57,643 nt of DNA from an uncultured Caryophanales bacterium (lineage in GTDB: Bacteria > Bacillota_I > Bacilli_A > RF39 > UBA660): contig CAMOWA010000006.1 of NCBI GenBank assembly GCA_946628005.1, forward strand, positions 1 to 57,643. The letters run 5' to 3'. Position numbers and translations under genes: made by a program. Position 1 is the first letter of the stretch; each line of letters opens with the position of its first letter. A model generated the notes under the pieces. The model searched no databases. It had not been told where the DNA came from and worked only from the letters and a program-made list of their open reading frames with translations. Of the stretch, positions 54 to 10,526 are shown piece by piece.

Positions 54-492
54 AATTTTTATTTTTCTATTATTTTTTTGAATATAATATGTTTTTTTTT
101 CAAGATTTTTTCTGTATTACTTGATTTTTTTTAGAGTTATTTATTTATAAAATTCATTTAGTTCGTTATAAATAAACCTAAATATTTTTTTTCATTTTAT
201 AAATTATCTTATGATTAAGAACATCTATTGTAAAAATTCTTCTATCATTCTGTTATTACTTATATTTTGTTTATTTTTAGTTTTACTTAAAATTAGTTAT
301 TTATATATGTTCTAAAGACAAATATTTAAGTGATAAAAATTTATTACTAAATATAATAAAAGTAATACTATTGTTTCATGATATTCAATAAAAAGAATAA
401 AAGGAATATAAATTCACATTATAATGATTCAATATACTTTTTTTAAGATAACTAGTTATATTTTTATCAAACAAACTAAAAGGAGGTTAAAT
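54..492 (+). promoter_or_regulatory. AT-rich leader with promoter of the FmdE/CbiM/ExbB locus
   Basis: No gene was found here. A TATA-like TTTATATAT lies near 299-308 and an AT-rich TATA-like stretch near 350-361. A strong Shine-Dalgarno site, AAAGGAGG, at about 479-486 fixes the start of the first gene at ATG 493. An upstream in-frame ATG at 424 has no ribosome binding site and would put a non-signal extension before the signal peptide, so it was not chosen. Confidence 0.5.
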
Positions 493-3400
493 ATGAATAA
501 TAGACAAGCTATAGGAATATTTCTAGTAATACTATTTATTACAATCGGTGCAGTATCTGCAGCAAATAACTCAACTACAGATACATCTAGTTCAGACATA
601 GCTTTAACATCTAATTCTAACACTCAAACAGCTACAACACCAACAACTACCACCACTACCAATAATCATAATACAACAGATAAAATAAACATAGGCGTGA
701 AATACCAATATACTGATGATTCTAATATTAACCCTACAGTAACAGCAATGACAAATATAAATAAATCAACTAAAGTAAATTCCAGTAAAGTTTACGACAA
801 AAACTTAGACTTCTATACTGTAACATTAAATCATGCAAATAATATTTCTTCATTTAATATAACTGTAACGGCACCAGGATATAAATCCCAAACCAAAACA
901 TTCACGGTTAATAAAACACAAAGTCTTGTATTTAATTTAAAAGCTACAGATAGTTATAATTATGGTAGAAAATTAGCAGTTATAGCTGATAATAAACTTA
1001 AATTTTCATCAGCAGATGATGTACTAGTAATAACTTCAGCAGGTGTTCCAAAATACCATAACAAAACATCCGAAGATGTAATGGAAGCAATCATTAATTA
1101 TTGCAATGGAACAGTAACTCGTGGAAGAGGAAACATGTTAATGTTAAGACAAACAGCAAATGATCCTATTGACACATGTTTTGTTATTAAAAAAGGTAAT
1201 AAACTAACTTCACTGGTATTCCTTAATGCATCAACTAAATATTCATATTATGGTACAATTTCTGAAAATATGACTCATAGTGAATGGAATACATTCTATA
1301 GAGCAGTAGGTGGCGAAAATGCTTACTCATTTTCAAGTCTAGCTAATGGATGGTATGATAATGTTTCCACACTAGTACTACAAGAAGCAGCATTCCATGG
1401 ACACATCTGTGAAGGTACTCTTGGTGGATACACTATTACAGAAGCATTACTACAATATTACCCACCTATAAAAGAAACTGCACCAGCATTTGCAAACCCT
1501 GGTGATAAAACATCATATAAAATATTAGGAATTCCTGGAGACTCTGCTAACGATGCTGTATTATTCTTCCTAGATGCTACTGCAGGAAAAAGTGGATATG
1601 TAGGATACAATACAACTTCTACTGGTGCAACCAGTAACATGATTGGTTTCATAAGATGGAATCCTGGAACAATAGTTTATAATAATAAAACAAATTCCTA
1701 TGAAGAAGGAGATCATGCTTCAGGTACAATAGTTGTAATGAAATATAATTCTGAAGATAATAAGAAATTATTTATAAAAGAAACTGGTATTACAGGTAAT
1801 GGAACTTTAGAAGAATTAAAATACAATACATGGTGGATTAACAAATTAAATACTAATCCTGGAAGTTTAGTATCAATATTAATTGAAAAAGACAACCTAA
1901 CAGAAGAACAATATTATTACTTAATTGGATTAACTGATGATATCACTTATCCTACAGCAGTAGCTAACGCAACTAATGCAGGAAAAATACGTATTAAAGC
2001 AACAGAAGCACACGGATTAGATTACAACTACATCAAAAATTTAAAATTACCAACAGCAAAACGTAACAATACTATGACTACACAAGGTAATTTAACATAC
2101 AATGACTTTAGAAACATAGGAGTAAGAGCAGGTAATATAGCAAAACAATACTTTAAAAAAGAATTAAATGTAACCCTTGAAAAAGAAATGCCAAACTTTG
2201 AAATATTAACAACTGCAGGTTACACATTCCTAAACCATCAAAGTACTACCCCCGTATGGGATGGATTATATGATGTATTTGGTGCTAGATTAACTAGACA
2301 AACATTATTACCTGACCACAGACCAATGTGGAAACCATTATGGTTCACATTTGTATTAAAACAAGATGATGGCCAATTAATGGCATTATATCTAAGATAC
2401 AATGATAATAACAATACGTTCTATGTATCATCATACAATGAAACTCACATATACAATATCAACATAAAAGCATTGAATAGTACTAAAGAATCAGATATAT
2501 TATCAACTTATATATTCCCTGATGGAAACTGGTTTAATATACAAAGTTTAACAAATGCATGGGCTAATGAACTAAACTTTGACCAGTTCTGTACATTCTT
2601 ATTCCATGGACACGCATGTCCCGGTGTACAGCCAGGATTTTTCATGTCTGATTATATCCTAAACAACTATCCATTAAACGAGAATGAATCATACTTCTAC
2701 ATAGCTTCAAGTATCTACTGTAAAGATGACAGTATAGAATACTTACTTGGTATATCACCAGGTTTAGGAAGTTACATGGATCAAAAACTCACATCATCTG
2801 ATGTAGAATCCGACTATGTAAATGGAGCAACAGAAGAAGGAGTTCTTGTAATATGGGATAATAAGTTAAATGTTGGTCGTGCAGTAATAATGAACTTTAA
2901 ATGGGCAACAATAGATACCAGTAAATATGCTACAAAAGATGCAAAAAGAGCAGCTCAAATTAACGCATTTGTTTCCTTATATAAAGGAGAGAATAACCCT
3001 GACATCATAGAAGGAAACACAATTCTAGGTACTGAAACTAAATGGATTACAGCAGATGAATATGCTAAACTTAAATCTGGTTCTGGTGACGATGCAAATG
3101 CAATAACATTTATACAAGGCATAAAACAAAGAACAAAAGAAGAAGCAATTAAACTTACAACACCAATAAATAACCCAACAAATAACAGTGGAACAAGCAC
3201 TAACACAAACGGACAATCAAATACTAATACAAATTCAAATAACAATGGACAAAAAAACACAAACCATAATAGAAATAATAATGCAACTGTAATAACTAAT
3301 AATGGTGGATCTTCATCTGGTTCAAGTTCATCATCCAATAGTTATTCAACATCAAATACTGGAACACAATCACCAGGTACAACTACTGCTGCAACAGCAA

Positions 3401-3594
3401 CGTTAGGAACACCTACAGTAGGAGATTCTAATGAAGCTGGACAAGAAGCAGCACCTGGTGGAAAAGCATATGAAGTTTCACAAGAAAATGAAGCTAATGG
3501 TGATTCAAACGCTCTACCATACTTCATATTAGTAGTTGGTGTAATTGGAGCATTATCCGGTTATGGATATATAAGAAGTAGAAAAGTAGAATAA
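493..3594 (+). CDS. Secreted, membrane-anchored protein with two FmdE-like domains
   Basis: The 1033-residue product starts with a signal peptide (residues 1-24, ending VSA), followed by a Thr/Ser/Asn linker. Two FmdE-like regions carry FHGHICEG near residue 301 and FHGHACPG near 704. After a low-complexity Asn/Ser tail it ends with one membrane helix and a basic RSRK stop. FmdE domains bind metal through the HGHxCPG Cys/His motif and were named from the formylmethanofuran dehydrogenase operon; the first copy here has Glu in place of Pro. Being extracellular with a C-terminal anchor, it is probably a surface metal- or cofactor-binding receptor for the transporter genes downstream. That role is inferred from context; the FmdE match rests on the motifs. 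Confidence 0.8.
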   Translation: MNNRQAIGIFLVILFITIGAVSAANNSTTDTSSSDIALTSNSNTQTATTPTTTTTTNNHNTTDKINIGVKYQYTDDSNINPTVTAMTNINKSTKVNSSKVYDKNLDFYTVTLNHANNISSFNITVTAPGYKSQTKTFTVNKTQSLVFNLKATDSYNYGRKLAVIADNKLKFSSADDVLVITSAGVPKYHNKTSEDVMEAIINYCNGTVTRGRGNMLMLRQTANDPIDTCFVIKKGNKLTSLVFLNASTKYSYYGTISENMTHSEWNTFYRAVGGENAYSFSSLANGWYDNVSTLVLQEAAFHGHICEGTLGGYTITEALLQYYPPIKETAPAFANPGDKTSYKILGIPGDSANDAVLFFLDATAGKSGYVGYNTTSTGATSNMIGFIRWNPGTIVYNNKTNSYEEGDHASGTIVVMKYNSEDNKKLFIKETGITGNGTLEELKYNTWWINKLNTNPGSLVSILIEKDNLTEEQYYYLIGLTDDITYPTAVANATNAGKIRIKATEAHGLDYNYIKNLKLPTAKRNNTMTTQGNLTYNDFRNIGVRAGNIAKQYFKKELNVTLEKEMPNFEILTTAGYTFLNHQSTTPVWDGLYDVFGARLTRQTLLPDHRPMWKPLWFTFVLKQDDGQLMALYLRYNDNNNTFYVSSYNETHIYNINIKALNSTKESDILSTYIFPDGNWFNIQSLTNAWANELNFDQFCTFLFHGHACPGVQPGFFMSDYILNNYPLNENESYFYIASSIYCKDDSIEYLLGISPGLGSYMDQKLTSSDVESDYVNGATEEGVLVIWDNKLNVGRAVIMNFKWATIDTSKYATKDAKRAAQINAFVSLYKGENNPDIIEGNTILGTETKWITADEYAKLKSGSGDDANAITFIQGIKQRTKEEAIKLTTPINNPTNNSGTSTNTNGQSNTNTNSNNNGQKNTNHNRNNNATVITNNGGSSSGSSSSSNSYSTSNTGTQSPGTTTAATATLGTPTVGDSNEAGQEAAPGGKAYEVSQENEANGDSNALPYFILVVGVIGALSGYGYIRSRKVE

Positions 3595-3643
3595 AAATCT
3601 TTATTCTATTTTTTTTTATTCTCTTTTTAATGAGGTGATTAAA

Positions 3644-4174
3644 ATTAAAAAAACTAATAAACTCCTAATTTTTTTAATGATTCTAATAATTACTATATCT
3701 GGAAGCCTTAGTATTGTCACAGCTCACCCAGGACATGGTGCTGAATATCCAGAGGAAGTAACTTCAAGTTCAAGTAGTAGCTCTGGTAGTTCATCTAGCC
3801 ACACATCAAGTTCACGAAGTAGCAGTAGTTCATCAAGTCATAAATCATATAGTAGTAGTTCTGGTAGTTCTACTTCAGGTGGATCTAGCTCAGTTGGTTC
3901 CAGTTCTGGTGGTTCTACACATAGTAGTTCTAGTGAATCAAATGGACAATCAGCTAGTGGTAGTAGTGATATTCCCACAGCAGTTGCAAGTACTGATGCA
4001 AATAATACAACAAATAATGTAACTTCTAACACTACAAACGATACTGGTAATGATACAAATAGTACCTCAGATAATACTGATTCGTTCTTATCTTTTACTA
4101 ATATATTGATTTTAATCTTAACATTTCTTGTAGCATTTGTAGCTGTTGTATTAGTTGGAAAATATAAAAAATAA
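3644..4174 (+). CDS. Ser-rich secreted anchored protein with N-terminal His motif
   Basis: About 176 residues: a signal peptide ending in TA, a mature start of HPGHGAEYPEE, a Ser/Gly-rich linker over about residues 40-110, a Thr/Asn stretch and a C-terminal membrane helix with basic tail. No family was recognised. The start is ambiguous. GTG at 3635 lies inside the Shine-Dalgarno GAGGTGA, whereas in-frame ATT at 3644 sits at the spacing used elsewhere in this window (GGTGATTAA-start). If the signal is cut as predicted, the mature protein exposes two histidines at its N terminus, which could bind Ni, Co or Cu. It lies 49 bases after the FmdE-domain gene and 54 before the CbiM-like gene. Confidence 0.7.
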   Translation: MKKTNKLLIFLMILIITISGSLSIVTAHPGHGAEYPEEVTSSSSSSSGSSSSHTSSSRSSSSSSSHKSYSSSSGSSTSGGSSSVGSSSGGSTHSSSSESNGQSASGSSDIPTAVASTDANNTTNNVTSNTTNDTGNDTNSTSDNTDSFLSFTNILILILTFLVAFVAVVLVGKYKK

Positions 4175-4228
4175 TTAATTTCCAGATTTATTAAAATTAG
4201 AATAATAATTATATAAGAGGTTATAATT

Positions 4229-4846
4229 ATGCATTTACCTGATGGGATAATTCCATTGGACCAAGCAATAATTTACTGGATAATAACAATAATAATTCTA
4301 GCATATTTCTTTTATTATTTCTCAAAAAATGAAAATAATGAGAAAAGTATTGTTAGAATTGCTATATTTGCAGGATGTACCTTTTTATTGTCAGCTATAT
4401 CCATACCTTCCCCTCTGGGAATACCAATACATTTCTTTGTTATTCCAATAACATCCATAGTATTAGGACCTATATTAGCCATACCGGTAGCATTTGTTAG
4501 TCTACTAGGTCAATCCTTATTATTTGGTATGGGTGGAATAACATCACTTGGAGCTAATTTCCTAGTTATGGGATTTATTCTCGCAATATGTACTGACATA
4601 TTCTACAGATTATTCTCTGAGATAAGTAATACTATAGCTATATTTCTAGCTACATTAATTGGAATAATTTGTGCTACATTTTCACAGGTAGCTATATTAA
4701 TGATATCTGGAGCAATGAATTTTGATACTCTTCTTGCAACATTAATCCCCTTCTATCTCTTTATAGGAGTTATTGAAGGTATTTTAAATGTTCTAATAGT
4801 AGAAGCAATAAGATCATTAAAACCAGAATTACTAAAAATTAGGTGA
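4229..4846 (+). CDS. CbiM/NikM-like Ni/Co transport membrane protein
   Basis: A 205-residue integral membrane protein with about six helices. It begins MHLPDG, matching the family hallmark in which His2 and the N-terminal amine bind cobalt or nickel. The conserved core SLGANFLVMG near residues 110-120 corresponds to the LGANIFNMG motif of CbiM. CbiM/NikM proteins are substrate-binding (S) components of energy-coupling-factor transporters, normally working with CbiQ and the ATPase CbiO. Neither partner is present in the window, so this copy may borrow a shared ECF module or work with the ExbB/ExbD-like pair downstream. Shine-Dalgarno AGAGGT precedes the ATG. Confidence 0.8.
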   Translation: MHLPDGIIPLDQAIIYWIITIIILAYFFYYFSKNENNEKSIVRIAIFAGCTFLLSAISIPSPLGIPIHFFVIPITSIVLGPILAIPVAFVSLLGQSLLFGMGGITSLGANFLVMGFILAICTDIFYRLFSEISNTIAIFLATLIGIICATFSQVAILMISGAMNFDTLLATLIPFYLFIGVIEGILNVLIVEAIRSLKPELLKIR

Positions 4847-4849
4847 ATT

Positions 4850-5365
4850 ATGATGAATAAGAAATATATTAAAATACTTGTAGTATGCTTTATATTACTA
4901 GTTGGCATTACTGGTGTAAGCGCTCATGGAGTTGATGTAACAGCTGATAAAATGGTAATAGCAAATGATACCAATGGTCAATTAGTAAAGGATATTGCAG
5001 ATTCTAATGGAATAAATATTAGTGTATATAAATTTACCTCAGATGATGAGGTTGAACATCAATTAGAACACATGTTAAATAATACTAATAAAAGTATTTT
5101 AGTAGTCTCCTACCAAAGTACTGCACATGATTTTCTAAATAAACATCCTGAAGTATCTGACAGATTACAAGTTGTTGATGATGTAAATAACCAGACAGTA
5201 GTAGATGGTATTAAGGCAGTTGAAAGTTATGATAGTAGTTCACAAAATAATAGTACTACAAGCTTTGGATTACCATTACTTATTGGATTAATTATTGGAG
5301 TAATAGTTGGATTAGGATGTGGAATATACCTAATGAAACGAAAAGATAAAACAAAAAAAGAATAA
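4850..5365 (+). CDS. Anchored extracytoplasmic protein of the CbiM-like locus
   Basis: 171 residues with a signal peptide ending GVSA, a mature N terminus of HGVDVTADK, a soluble domain of about 110 residues and a C-terminal membrane helix with a Lys-rich cytoplasmic tail. It starts three bases after the CbiM-like stop, and its Shine-Dalgarno site overlaps that stop, so the two are translationally coupled. Its place after cbiM and its topology recall CbiN, but the soluble domain is much larger and no CbiN motif was found. A role as auxiliary subunit of the metal transporter is inferred. ATG 4853 is an equally possible start. Confidence 0.7.
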   Translation: MMNKKYIKILVVCFILLVGITGVSAHGVDVTADKMVIANDTNGQLVKDIADSNGINISVYKFTSDDEVEHQLEHMLNNTNKSILVVSYQSTAHDFLNKHPEVSDRLQVVDDVNNQTVVDGIKAVESYDSSSQNNSTTSFGLPLLIGLIIGVIVGLGCGIYLMKRKDKTKKE

Positions 5366-5436
5366 TAAAACATGATATTGAAACAAACTAATTATGAACT
5401 AATAATATTAAAAAAATATATTTAGAGGAATGAACG

Positions 5437-6141
5437 ATGGATATAATGGGCATTTTATGGCAATTTAATATTATACTATCTCTAATTGTATTTGGTATTA
5501 ATATTGGATTAGCGATAGGACTTGCTAAATTATCAAAGAAAGTACTTGCTCTGGTAAGTATTGGATATGGTACAGGTATATTTATACTAACAACCATAGC
5601 CACTGTTTATTCACAACAAATAATAAACACCGTGAATTTAAACAGCATAACATTATACCTAATAATGGCAGTATACCTTATAATCATAGGAATAATTGGA
5701 ATTAAAGATTGGAAAGTACATACTAATGATACTAAGACATCACTTGTCTTAGATATAGTAGCTCCAGCACCTTGTTTTCTAATAATAATTGTTGGTTCAA
5801 TACTAAATCTAGTTCCAACAATCAATTATAATACTATAGGTATCGAAATAATAGCTTCAATAACATTAATTACTATAATAACAATTACATACTTCATAAC
5901 TAAAAAATCAGCTTCAAAACATGTACCATACCAAGTAAGTCTTGGAAATTTCATGATATACACGGGAGCTTATTTTTTAATACAAGGACTTCTTATTCCA
6001 TGTATCCTATCAATACAAGGTAATCAATTCAGAGAAATTACCATTGAAATTCTTCAAATAATAATAATGCTAATACTTGTAGTTGTTCTAATAATTATTG
6101 GTATTATTCATTATAGAAAAAACGATGATATACTAAAATAA
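5437..6141 (+). CDS. DUF2162-like predicted transporter
   Basis: A 234-residue membrane protein with about six or seven helices. The segment APAPCFLIII after a short cytoplasmic loop (KDWKVHTND) resembles the conserved Pro-Cys motif of the DUF2162 predicted transporters of methanogens. From memory, that family often neighbours ExbB/TolQ and DUF2149 genes, which is the arrangement here (ExbB-like gene 16 bases downstream). Substrate is unknown. Within this locus a role in moving a metal or a metal complex across the membrane is plausible. Family assignment is from motif recall only. Confidence 0.65.
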   Translation: MDIMGILWQFNIILSLIVFGINIGLAIGLAKLSKKVLALVSIGYGTGIFILTTIATVYSQQIINTVNLNSITLYLIMAVYLIIIGIIGIKDWKVHTNDTKTSLVLDIVAPAPCFLIIIVGSILNLVPTINYNTIGIEIIASITLITIITITYFITKKSASKHVPYQVSLGNFMIYTGAYFLIQGLLIPCILSIQGNQFREITIEILQIIIMLILVVVLIIIGIIHYRKNDDILK

Positions 6142-6157
6142 TTAATATGGTGATTAA

Positions 6158-6820
6158 ATGGCATTGAATGTAACAGGCGGAGCTTTTCTAACAGAAACAC
6201 TTGATATAATTTCCCAGAGCTTAACAATACCTGTATTAATAATATTACTAATAATATTTGTACTAGCAGTAATTTATTTAGGTAGTGTAATAGCAGAATA
6301 TGGTTCAAGAAAGAAAGTTCCTGTAGAACAAATAGAACAAATAATATATGATATTAATAATGCAAGTTCTATAGAAAACGTAAATGATATAATAGTTAAT
6401 TCAGGTCTACCTAAGTCAGATAAACAAATATTATCAAAAATAGCTAATTCAACTACATTAACTAAAAAATCAAGAGAAGCAATAGCACGTAAATTAGTAG
6501 ACTATGAAGAAGAAAAAATAGATAATAAACTAGAAAAAACAGATATTATCACACGAATTGGTCCAACATTAGGATTAATGGGTACATTAATACCATTAGG
6601 ACCAGGACTAGCAGCACTAGGTTCAGGCGATATTAATACTCTAGCTAGCTCTTTGACAGTAGCATTCGATACCACAGTAGTAGGTATAGGTGCAGGAGCA
6701 CTAGCATACTGTGAAGGAAAAGTAAGAAGAAAATGGTACGATAAACACTTATCTGATTTAGATAGTTTATCAGATGCTATTTTAGATTATTTAGAACAAC
6801 ATAGTGATTACAATGGTTAG
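6158..6820 (+). CDS. MotA/TolQ/ExbB-type proton channel protein
   Basis: 220 residues. One N-terminal membrane helix (about 22-45) is followed by a charged cytoplasmic domain and two closely spaced helices containing GPTLGLMGTLIPLG and AFDTTVVGIGAGAL. These match the TolQ/ExbB signature, including the conserved Thr in the last helix. ExbB forms the stator of proton-driven motors with ExbD. Here it overlaps the ExbD-like gene by 8 bases. Since this cell has no outer membrane, the classical TonB role cannot apply; energising an extracytoplasmic metal-binding apparatus is the inference. Confidence 0.88.
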   Translation: MALNVTGGAFLTETLDIISQSLTIPVLIILLIIFVLAVIYLGSVIAEYGSRKKVPVEQIEQIIYDINNASSIENVNDIIVNSGLPKSDKQILSKIANSTTLTKKSREAIARKLVDYEEEKIDNKLEKTDIITRIGPTLGLMGTLIPLGPGLAALGSGDINTLASSLTVAFDTTVVGIGAGALAYCEGKVRRKWYDKHLSDLDSLSDAILDYLEQHSDYNG

Positions 6821-7151
6821 AAGTGAAAGACGAAGAAACAGACTATCTAAGACAGAAGAGGATCCAATGGCAGGTACAGCAAACTTAGTAGATGCTATGC
6901 TAGTTTTAGCTGTAGGATTTCTCATATTTGTTGTTATGAGTTGGAATATGCAAAGTATTGTTTTCTCTGACATGTCCCAAGATGAAAAAAATGATATGAT
7001 GGAGAAAATGCAAAGTGCAACAAACTTAGAACAAGGCCAAGAATTAAATGAAACACCAAATGTTACTCAAAGTTCTGGTCAAGGTTACACTGAGATGGGT
7101 AAAGTATATAAAGACCCGTCGACTGGTAAACTTATCATGGTAGAAGGTTAA
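6813..7151 (+). CDS. ExbD-like DUF2149 protein
   Basis: 112 residues counted from ATG 6813, which overlaps the ExbB-like gene by 8 bases. A basic N terminus (RSERRRNR) leads to one membrane helix with NLVDAMLVLAVGF. Its Asp and MLVL spacing closely match the ExbD helix (LIDVMLVL), where the Asp carries protons. A short extracytoplasmic tail follows, smaller than the ExbD periplasmic domain. This fits the methanogen DUF2149 family. It is the partner of the ExbB-like protein and closes the operon. Confidence 0.82.
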   Translation: MVRSERRRNRLSKTEEDPMAGTANLVDAMLVLAVGFLIFVVMSWNMQSIVFSDMSQDEKNDMMEKMQSATNLEQGQELNETPNVTQSSGQGYTEMGKVYKDPSTGKLIMVEG

Positions 7152-9259: not shown

Positions 9260-9877
9260 TTATAAGTTTAATAATTGTTTTGGGTTATCTATAACTTTTA
9301 ACGGATATGAATCATTGTATGCTTCACTATTTCCTTGTCCCCATGTTACAAGAATTAGGTCTAGATTTGAGTTTTTTGCTGTTTTAATATCAGTACCTCT
9401 GTCACCTATGTATACTATCTCATCACGAGAATAGTTTTCATGGTCTAGTATTTGATTCATCATTTCAGGGTTTGGCTTGAAGTAGCCTCCCTCATTGTAT
9501 CCTATTACATATTTGAAGTTGATATTAGAGAATAATCGTTCTGTGAGCATATCTAGGAGGTTTTGTATCCTGTTTGAGCAGATTGCTAATTCTACATCAG
9601 GGTTATTATCTAGTGTTTCTAGTACTTCCATTATTCCAGGGTATGGTTTTGTGTATTCCATATTACTATTAATATATATTTCACCGTATGTTTCTAGTAT
9701 TCCCTCGTCACGAGTCATATTTTCTATGAAATCATCAAATTCTAGGTCTTCAAGCTTATCATAATGATATATTTCTCTTCCATGTTGTTCTAATGCTTTA
9801 TTATATGCAATCACGGAATCATAGAATGTGTTTACAAGTGTTCCATCAAAATCAAATATGAATAATTTCTTTGTCAA
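9260..9877 (-). CDS. HAD-superfamily hydrolase (phosphoglycolate phosphatase-like)
   Basis: 205 residues from TTG 9877. This start was chosen because GGGAG lies eight bases upstream and because it places motif I near the N terminus; ATG 9892 is an alternative. All HAD motifs are present: DFDGTLVNT (nucleophile Asp), CSNR, KPNPEM (Lys) and GDRGTDI. The helical cap is inserted after motif I, as in Gph-type phosphatases. The substrate is unknown. It follows a paralogue by 25 bases. Confidence 0.88.
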   Translation of the reverse strand: MTKKLFIFDFDGTLVNTFYDSVIAYNKALEQHGREIYHYDKLEDLEFDDFIENMTRDEGILETYGEIYINSNMEYTKPYPGIMEVLETLDNNPDVELAICSNRIQNLLDMLTERLFSNINFKYVIGYNEGGYFKPNPEMMNQILDHENYSRDEIVYIGDRGTDIKTAKNSNLDLILVTWGQGNSEAYNDSYPLKVIDNPKQLLNL

Positions 9878-9902
9878 CGTTATTACTCCCATAAGTTTAT
9901 TA

Positions 9903-10526
9903 TTAAAAGTCTAGTAAATCTCTTGGTGAATCTATTATTTTTAGTGGATAATCATTATTATAGTCTTCCTCGTTTCCCTGTCCATAACTTACTAGTATCA
10001 TATCTATTCCTGCTTGTTTAGCTGCTTCTATATCCACATCTTTATCTCCATAATATATCACTTCATCTAGTGGTGTACCCTCTTTTTCTATTATTTCTAA
10101 TAGTCTGTCAGGATTAGGCTTATCTAGTATACCATCTCTATGTCCTGATATATATTTAAAATCTATGTTAGGAAACAGTTTTTTAGTATATTCTACTAGA
10201 TAATTATTTTCCTTGTTAGAACATACTGCTAGTGTTGCACCTTGTTTAGAAAGAGTTTTTAATACATCCATTATTCCCTCGTATGGCTTTGTGTTTGGTT
10301 TATCATATTTACGGTATATGTCATTGTATAAGTGATATACTTTAGAGTTTTTACCAGCATCATTATCTACTAAGAATTTTCTGAAATCCTTGTATATTAT
10401 TGTTTCAAGATTTCCACGATATACTGGCTTTCCTTCCTGTTCTAGTGCCTGATTCACACAATGTATTGAATCATATAAGGAATCTACTAGTGTTCCATCA
10501 AAATCAAATATATATAATGTTTTCAT
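9903..10526 (-). CDS. HAD-superfamily hydrolase, paralogue
   Basis: 207 residues with motifs DFDGTLVDS at residues 8-16, CSNKEN, KPNPDR and GDKDVDIEAA. It is the first gene of an operon with the second HAD gene and the zinc ribbon gene. The two HAD proteins share length, cap position and C-terminal LKIIDSPRDLL/LKVIDNPKQLL, so they arose by tandem duplication and probably act on related phosphomonoesters. Confidence 0.88.
   Translation of the reverse strand: MKTLYIFDFDGTLVDSLYDSIHCVNQALEQEGKPVYRGNLETIIYKDFRKFLVDNDAGKNSKVYHLYNDIYRKYDKPNTKPYEGIMDVLKTLSKQGATLAVCSNKENNYLVEYTKKLFPNIDFKYISGHRDGILDKPNPDRLLEIIEKEGTPLDEVIYYGDKDVDIEAAKQAGIDMILVSYGQGNEEDYNNDYPLKIIDSPRDLLDF

Follow-up and report, generated by a model that had tools for sequence, protein, structure and literature searches.

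A seven-gene FmdE, CbiM and ExbB/DUF2149 locus: a candidate motor-linked machine for metal capture at the methanogen cell surface

The window, a 57,643-nt stretch of DNA (contig CAMOWA010000006.1) filed under an uncultured bacterium, carries at positions 493-7151 seven co-directional open reading frames: a secreted double-domain FmdE protein, a small anchored surface protein, the cobalt/nickel S component CbiM, a small CbiM partner, a DUF2162 membrane protein, and the motor subunits ExbB and DUF2149. These appear to form a single operon whose products capture a metal at the cell surface and take it up, nickel being the most likely one; the FmdE protein would dock on the motor by way of a short C-terminal tag. 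We give this reading somewhat better than even chances. It is favoured because of a conserved gene order, a tag shared between proteins, the co-occurrence of that tag with DUF2149, the metal ligands present and a nickel response. The usual rationale for motors of the ExbB/TolQ type is that an outer membrane has to be energised, and methanogens do not have one. What, then, might such a motor move?

The families FmdE, CbiM, DUF2162, MotA_ExbB and DUF2149 all score above their Pfam curated cut-offs, FmdE in two stretches (E 3e-21, 76.2 bits against a gathering score of 22.9) and CbiM with 153 bits against 23.1. No credible Pfam match was obtained for the two small anchored secreted proteins (3635-4174 and 4850-5365). 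The first-pass annotation, which had read seven co-directional genes of these families from the letters and placed the FmdE start at position 493, is borne out; the start is an ATG with the ribosome-binding site AGGAGGT just 5' of it. DUF2149 more likely begins at the ATG at 6813 than at the GTG at 6804, because its relatives begin with MVR. Only 3 nt separate CbiM from the next gene, and ExbB and DUF2149 overlap, a spacing that fits a single operon.

Does the arrangement recur? FmdE loci with wide flanks were compared in Methanobacteriales, 56 with the window included. CbiM, its small partner and the DUF2162/ExbB/DUF2149 trio stand together in 14 of these, that is, in 13 of the 55 others. The identical seven-gene order is present in nine loci besides the window, and in four loci CbiM and its partner run divergently from FmdE while the trio lies downstream. 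(At locus L169 the open reading frame caller had picked an antisense frame over ExbB.) Recurrence of the seven-gene order is far above chance, and conserved co-occurrence, on which the first-pass annotation had made its reading depend with one genome in view, is thus found. Loci of the Methanothermobacter type have FmdE, then CobN, then the trio.

Full-length relatives of the FmdE protein are found in Methanobacteriales. Relatives of the ExbB protein reveal DUF2162-ExbB-DUF2149 as a separate module both in Methanobrevibacter and among Bacillota, Carboxydocella being one example, with DUF2162 the commonest direct neighbour of ExbB-DUF2149 and the usual third member. The commonest neighbour of the trio itself is a CobN-like chelatase of about 1,650 amino acids (PF02514). 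In the phylum of Carboxydocella, 22 of 299 genomes encode DUF2149; Methanobacteriales genomes that have it often carry several copies. A second arrangement, DUF2149-DUF2162-ExbB, is present at L010, L040, L042-L045, L047 and L049; a CDP-glycerol glycerophosphotransferase gene flanks it on one side, and on the other, at most of the loci listed, lies a beta-helix protein with the variant tail AY(N/K)LDVDE. At L127 (G162:C1 983000-999400) three fragments of 710, 95 and 586 amino acids take the place of an intact CobN between FmdE and the trio, through frameshifts or decay; the split resembles the apparent one of MTBMA_c10550-10570 in Methanothermobacter marburgensis.

The motor pair retains the features of its class. 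The conserved core of ExbB reads TRIGPTLGLMGTLIP...AFDTTVVGIG. The DUF2149 helix NLVDAMLVL keeps its intramembrane Asp, as first annotated, and across 86 homologues this is conserved from archaea to Bacillota; the extracytoplasmic tail is also strongly conserved and ends in GKVYKDPsTGKLIMVEG. The ExbD family PF02472 has no match in the locus, where only DUF2149 matches. In the Bacillota loci L244 and L233 the ExbB-DUF2149 pair adjoins ABC_cobalt, CbiQ and ATP-binding cassette (ABC) ATPase genes, i.e. the S, T and ATPase components of a cobalt-type energy-coupling factor (ECF) transporter. Linkage of the motor to an ECF S component therefore recurs in Bacillota with different proteins. In the portion of the literature searched for DUF2149, DUF2162 and the COG, arCOG and Pfam identifiers, the archaeal operon was not found treated as a system.

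Of particular interest is the C-terminal end of the FmdE protein, which consists of the tag [K/R][A/S]YE[V/I/L], a stretch of 9-19 residues, a single helix and a basic end. Its residues 886-1031 can be aligned at 32-41% to the C-terminal ends of CobN-sized proteins, a likeness that comes from a common tail; the catalytic parts are unrelated. Where a C-terminal helix is detectable, the tag is found on 55 of 57 FmdE and 40 of 43 CobN tails, set against a shuffled-tail background of 1.6%. Across archaeal and Bacillota CobN tails the Glu never varies and the Tyr hardly does, in a linker that is otherwise unconserved. Beta-helix surface proteins that adjoin ExbB-DUF2149 are tagged as well (NAYEI in c27, KAYEI in L008 and L011), and anchored proteins directly upstream of divergent bacterial ExbB-DUF2149 pairs carry a looser form (RVYEI, QIYEL, LIFEV). 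Among 150 Methanobacteriales genomes, a match to the tail profile at E <= 1e-4 is present in 119 of the 134 with DUF2149 and in one of the 16 without. Matches of FmdE to beta-helix proteins (L008, L056) were rejected as an artefact of the common tail. In Bacillota, ExbB-DUF2149 lies near peptide/nickel-type ABC transporter genes at L235, L248 and L249, and the tagged protein of L248-L249 is a mini CobN of 470 amino acids.

In Escherichia coli TonB, a beta-prone stretch, the D-box, directly follows the helix; two ExbD domains take it up as a strand, and it has been proposed to carry force (PMC10907165). The tag is similar in its position relative to the membrane (mirrored, as the proposed client is C-terminally anchored) and in its alternation of apolar and polar residues. 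By analogy, the tag might bind the ExbB/DUF2149 motor.

Table 1. Features of the locus in window coordinates
Feature	Position	Strand	Basis
Secreted double-FmdE protein, 1033 amino acids: signal peptide, low-complexity stalk, C-terminal tag and anchor	493..3594	+	PF02663
Tag KAYEVS, one transmembrane helix, basic end; proposed motor docking site	3460..3591	+	profile A2, E 1e-15
Small surface protein: signal peptide, mature N-terminus HPGHGxEYxEEV, Ser-rich stalk, C-terminal helix; start codon uncertain	3635..4174	+	
CbiM, ECF-type Co/Ni S component	4229..4846	+	PF01891, E 1e-44 over whole length; starts MHLPDG
CbiM partner: two helices flanking an extracytoplasmic alpha/beta (Rossmann-like) domain, mature N-terminus AHGVDVT	4850..5365	+	
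DUF2162 multi-helix membrane protein, predicted transporter	5437..6141	+	PF09930, E 5e-41
ExbB/TolQ/MotA-family motor subunit	6158..6820	+	PF01618, E 2e-9, 37.5 bits against 22.9
DUF2149, ExbD-like subunit, one helix	6813..7151	+	PF09919, E 1.5e-23
Promoter-region repeat TATTAC-N14-GTAATA; possible regulator site	342..367	.	pattern search; related to GTAATA-N16-TATTAC of relatives

The proteins that accompany the motor carry putative metal ligands. Both FmdE domains of the window protein carry the FHGHxC metal-site motif (FHGHIC and FHGHAC), and the first of the two is kept in nearly all FmdE relatives; where FmdE structures have been solved, the residues of this motif bind either Zn or a mixture of Zn and Ni (PMC2954224). 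The protein 3' of FmdE has the mature N-terminus AHPGHGxEYxEEV, with HPGHG in nearly all such neighbours among the relatives, and to judge from this motif is probably a metal-binding tip. The CbiM partner, with a conserved AHGVDVT, is a regular companion of CbiM in the relatives. Its AlphaFold2 model (mean predicted local distance difference test score, pLDDT, 75.7) has two helices around a small alpha/beta domain, and a fold search returned no more than weak matches of the Rossmann type, often to designed proteins. It is CbiN-like in topology only: a two-helix protein with an extracytoplasmic domain but no Pfam CbiN match. The DUF2162 model (pLDDT 82.4) gave no significant match in Foldseek. 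Assignment of DUF2162 to a transporter family is not claimed, as the VIA-align scores against half of a major facilitator superfamily fold (Z 8-11) are in the range of possibly common helical packing.

How might these parts work together? The extracytoplasmic FmdE domains and the HPGHG protein would bind Ni2+ at the cell face. CbiM and its two-helix partner would carry the ion across the membrane, either unaided or together with CbiQO from another locus, with DUF2162 a further membrane partner. ExbB and DUF2149 would act as a proton-driven motor of the stator type, on which FmdE would dock via KAYEVS, its helix lying against ExbB and the tag adding a strand to the DUF2149 tail, in the manner of the TonB D-box. 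Motor strokes could then change or pull the metal-bearing protein, such that metal is released to CbiM (or a chelatase turns over). In sister operons the same motor would carry a tagged CobN-like chelatase instead of, or beside, FmdE. The anchored FmdE or CobN, reached via the tag, is thus a more likely target than the metal transfer through pseudomurein that the first-pass annotation had put forward, for which no evidence was found. Its broader notion of a coupled, energised metal-uptake machine gains from the conserved linkage, the ECF linkage in Bacillota and the nickel response of a homologous operon.

Which metal is handled? Nickel is the best guess and cobalt the second. In genome G171, which is probably M. 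marburgensis, FmdE is followed by DUF2162, ExbB and DUF2149 at 980-990 kb. The chelatase of M. marburgensis is MTBMA_c10550-10570 (PMC3087415). Gene numbers and position suggest that MTBMA_c10530 is the ExbB or the DUF2162 of the operon formed by FmdE, CobN and the trio. Proteomics of M. marburgensis found 'Transporter MTBMA_c10530' raised under nickel limitation, and CobN1 and NikR1 raised only under nickel limitation (PMC12350162). Nickel is favoured because of the induction of MTBMA_c10530 and CobN1, and because ExbB-DUF2149 of Bacillota stands beside ECF cobalt-type genes. Uptake of cobalt, molybdate or tungstate is the alternative that survives best, albeit an unlikely one. CbiM is named for cobalt and FmdE for the context of the fmd operon, but the inductions mentioned were reported under nickel limitation, and most FmdE homologues adjoin metal-ion transporters and not fmd operons (PMC2954224).

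Many FmdE promoters of relatives (e.g. L054, L136, L174) contain an inverted repeat, GTAATA-N16-TATTAC, around a TATA-like element, with a spacer of N17 or N19 in some clades. This canonical N16 form was not found upstream of the window FmdE; the TATTAC-N14-GTAATA present there recurs, likewise arranged, in L158, the closest relative. The NikR operator of E. coli is GTATGA-N16-TCATAC (PMC7055735). Despite the matching N16 spacing, a NikR operator was not adopted, in view of the N17 and N19 spacers of other clades and the variant form of the window; it is further weakened by the lack of the repeat at the CbiQ loci and by genome-wide counts only modestly above a reversed-pattern control.

Could the motor act instead on DUF2162, or on CbiM through gating of the S component, with the tag a docking or localisation mark that transfers no force? 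The place of DUF2162 as commonest neighbour and the whole ECF modules beside Bacillota ExbB-DUF2149 speak for this. Several ExbB-DUF2149 pairs with no adjacent DUF2162, however, keep a tagged, C-anchored protein directly upstream (L055-L060, L064; L244-L252), and we regard action on DUF2162 or CbiM as improbable.

The tagged CobN next to the archaeal trio has as its best match in the PDB the heme dechelatase HmuS, a protein anchored by helices at both ends (PMC12583661); the solved HmuS chain was expressed without these membrane-anchoring helices. Bacteroidota hmu operons encode the CobN-like HmuS, HmuT, HmuU (an ExbB) and HmuV (a DUF2149), and are strongly induced without iron (PMC10434189). 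Because the partner CobN is closest to HmuS, the archaeal motor is considered the counterpart of the Bacteroidota hmuSTUV module, and the window operon is a relative of this motor module, with FmdE and CbiM in place of HmuS. This link, missed in the first-pass annotation, makes the motor one of a known kind, not an unprecedented one. Like the window, hmuYRSTUV places ExbB and DUF2149 beside a polytopic membrane protein and a large membrane-anchored protein that handles metal outside the cytoplasm. It differs in having an outer membrane, HmuY/HmuR and HmuS where the window has FmdE, the HPGHG protein and CbiM; taken strictly as an Hmu module, the window operon has ExbB and DUF2149 but not the HmuS/CobN-like chelatase, which sister operons do have. 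The likeness raises the prospect of an archaeal system of the Hmu type, its motor powering the handling of a metal tetrapyrrole or cobamide and not of a free ion. The HmuS match and the pairing of CobN, ExbB and DUF2149 in hmuSTUV fit this prospect, but there is no CobN in the window operon, and CbiM and FmdE point to ions, which makes it rather unlikely here.

That the tag is a sorting or retention signal for surface proteins (archaeosortase-like), independent of the motor, is the least probable of the alternatives: sorting signals usually comprise a C-terminal helix and a basic end, and tagged beta-helix proteins occur away from motor genes, but the tag is 9-19 residues off the helix and not against it, it tracks DUF2149, it is common to the Bacillota CobN and mini-CobN next to ExbB-DUF2149, sortase-like LPxTG proteins of genome G160 do not carry it, and no NCBIfam model matches the FmdE protein.

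Comparison with other known systems helps to place the machine proposed here, in which the motor acts on tagged FmdE. ExbB-ExbD-TonB and TolQ-TolR-TolA share with it an ExbB-family protein, a one-helix partner with an Asp, and an anchored client (here a putative one) with a beta-prone juxtamembrane motif. Unlike in ExbB-ExbD-TonB, DUF2149 replaces ExbD, the putative client is C-terminally anchored and is itself a metal protein, and there is no outer-membrane target. CbiMNQO and NikMNQO likewise combine a CbiM S component with a two-helix partner; the window locus has no CbiQ/CbiO, its partner has an alpha/beta domain, and there is a proton-motor link. The FHGHxC motif is that of the FmdE family PF02663, but the window protein has two domains and is a large, secreted, anchored and tagged protein.

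A census of the tag over 1.2 of the 1.85 Mb of G160 found it on CobN, as the variant AHEIS, and on a small number of large surface proteins, of which one or more are of the beta-helix type. Large anchored surface proteins with a YE tag or a variant lie at G160:C1 270718-272496, 840147-842462, 959380-961770 and 1082110-1087749; a very large secreted adhesin-like gene is adjacent to three of the four and nearby in the fourth. The large tagged surface proteins are possible further motor clients.

Several observations weigh against a nickel machine built around FmdE and its tag. The tagged beta-helix proteins of G160 have no evident metal link and some are far from any motor gene found, so that the tag is carried by a group of surface proteins and is not metal-specific. 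The co-occurrence of tag and DUF2149 has a Fisher p of 1.4e-11 that is uncorrected for ancestry and genome completeness. In 12 FmdE loci CbiM and its partner are present with no trio nearby. The nickel evidence comes from another genus and from an operon with CobN and without CbiM. The promoter repeat of the window is only a variant arrangement, and a search of loci with CbiQ did not find GTAATA-N16-TATTAC there.

A more general role for the motor might accommodate the wider set of tagged proteins. In archaea and Bacillota, ExbB-DUF2149 motors may act directly on C-terminally anchored surface proteins with the [K/R][A/S]YE[V/I/L] tag, as a general force coupling in single-membrane cells; to this we assign slightly less than even chances. 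Such coupling, a TonB-like principle without an outer membrane, would first of all serve FmdE and CobN/HmuS-like proteins in metal capture and (de)chelation, and other surface proteins too, which we hold just as tentatively.

The origin of the window itself deserves comment. It is assigned to bin G000 (2.2 Mb, 126 contigs, 8% contamination), in which McrA (methyl-coenzyme M reductase) was not found, and DUF2149 is present in none of 143 good genomes of the order to which the bin is assigned. The window encodes a methanol-type MtaA (MtaA_Meth) above the family cut-off, has a GC content of 27%, and its best FmdE relative, 61% identical, is in a Methanobacteriales genome. These sequence features indicate that it is probably a stray, mis-binned contig of a Methanosphaera-like methanogen. 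CbiQ was found neither in the window nor in the whole bin, CobN neither in the window operon nor in the bin, and there is no ABC ATPase gene within the operon. Absence of CbiQ/CbiO, as first annotated, thus holds for the locus and, with regard to CbiQ, for the bin; a methanogen host that lacks CbiQ, CbiO and CobN is not established, because the bin is not its own genome. Elsewhere in the window, at 9260-10526, the open reading frame translations show two adjoining, similar HAD-type hydrolase genes, apparently a tandem duplication.

The locus draws attention to a motor component that most Methanobacteriales carry in spite of having no outer membrane, and that is essentially undescribed in the literature searched. 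The shared box, a proposed docking site, names likely clients of this motor and makes the question of what it drives a testable one. Many archaeal homologues of HmuS exist, with a function called unclear by the HmuS authors (PMC12583661). If the metal is nickel, the operon would be a hitherto unrecognised supply route for the metal by which methane formation is limited, and it would point to a role for the CobN/HmuS homologues of methanogens.

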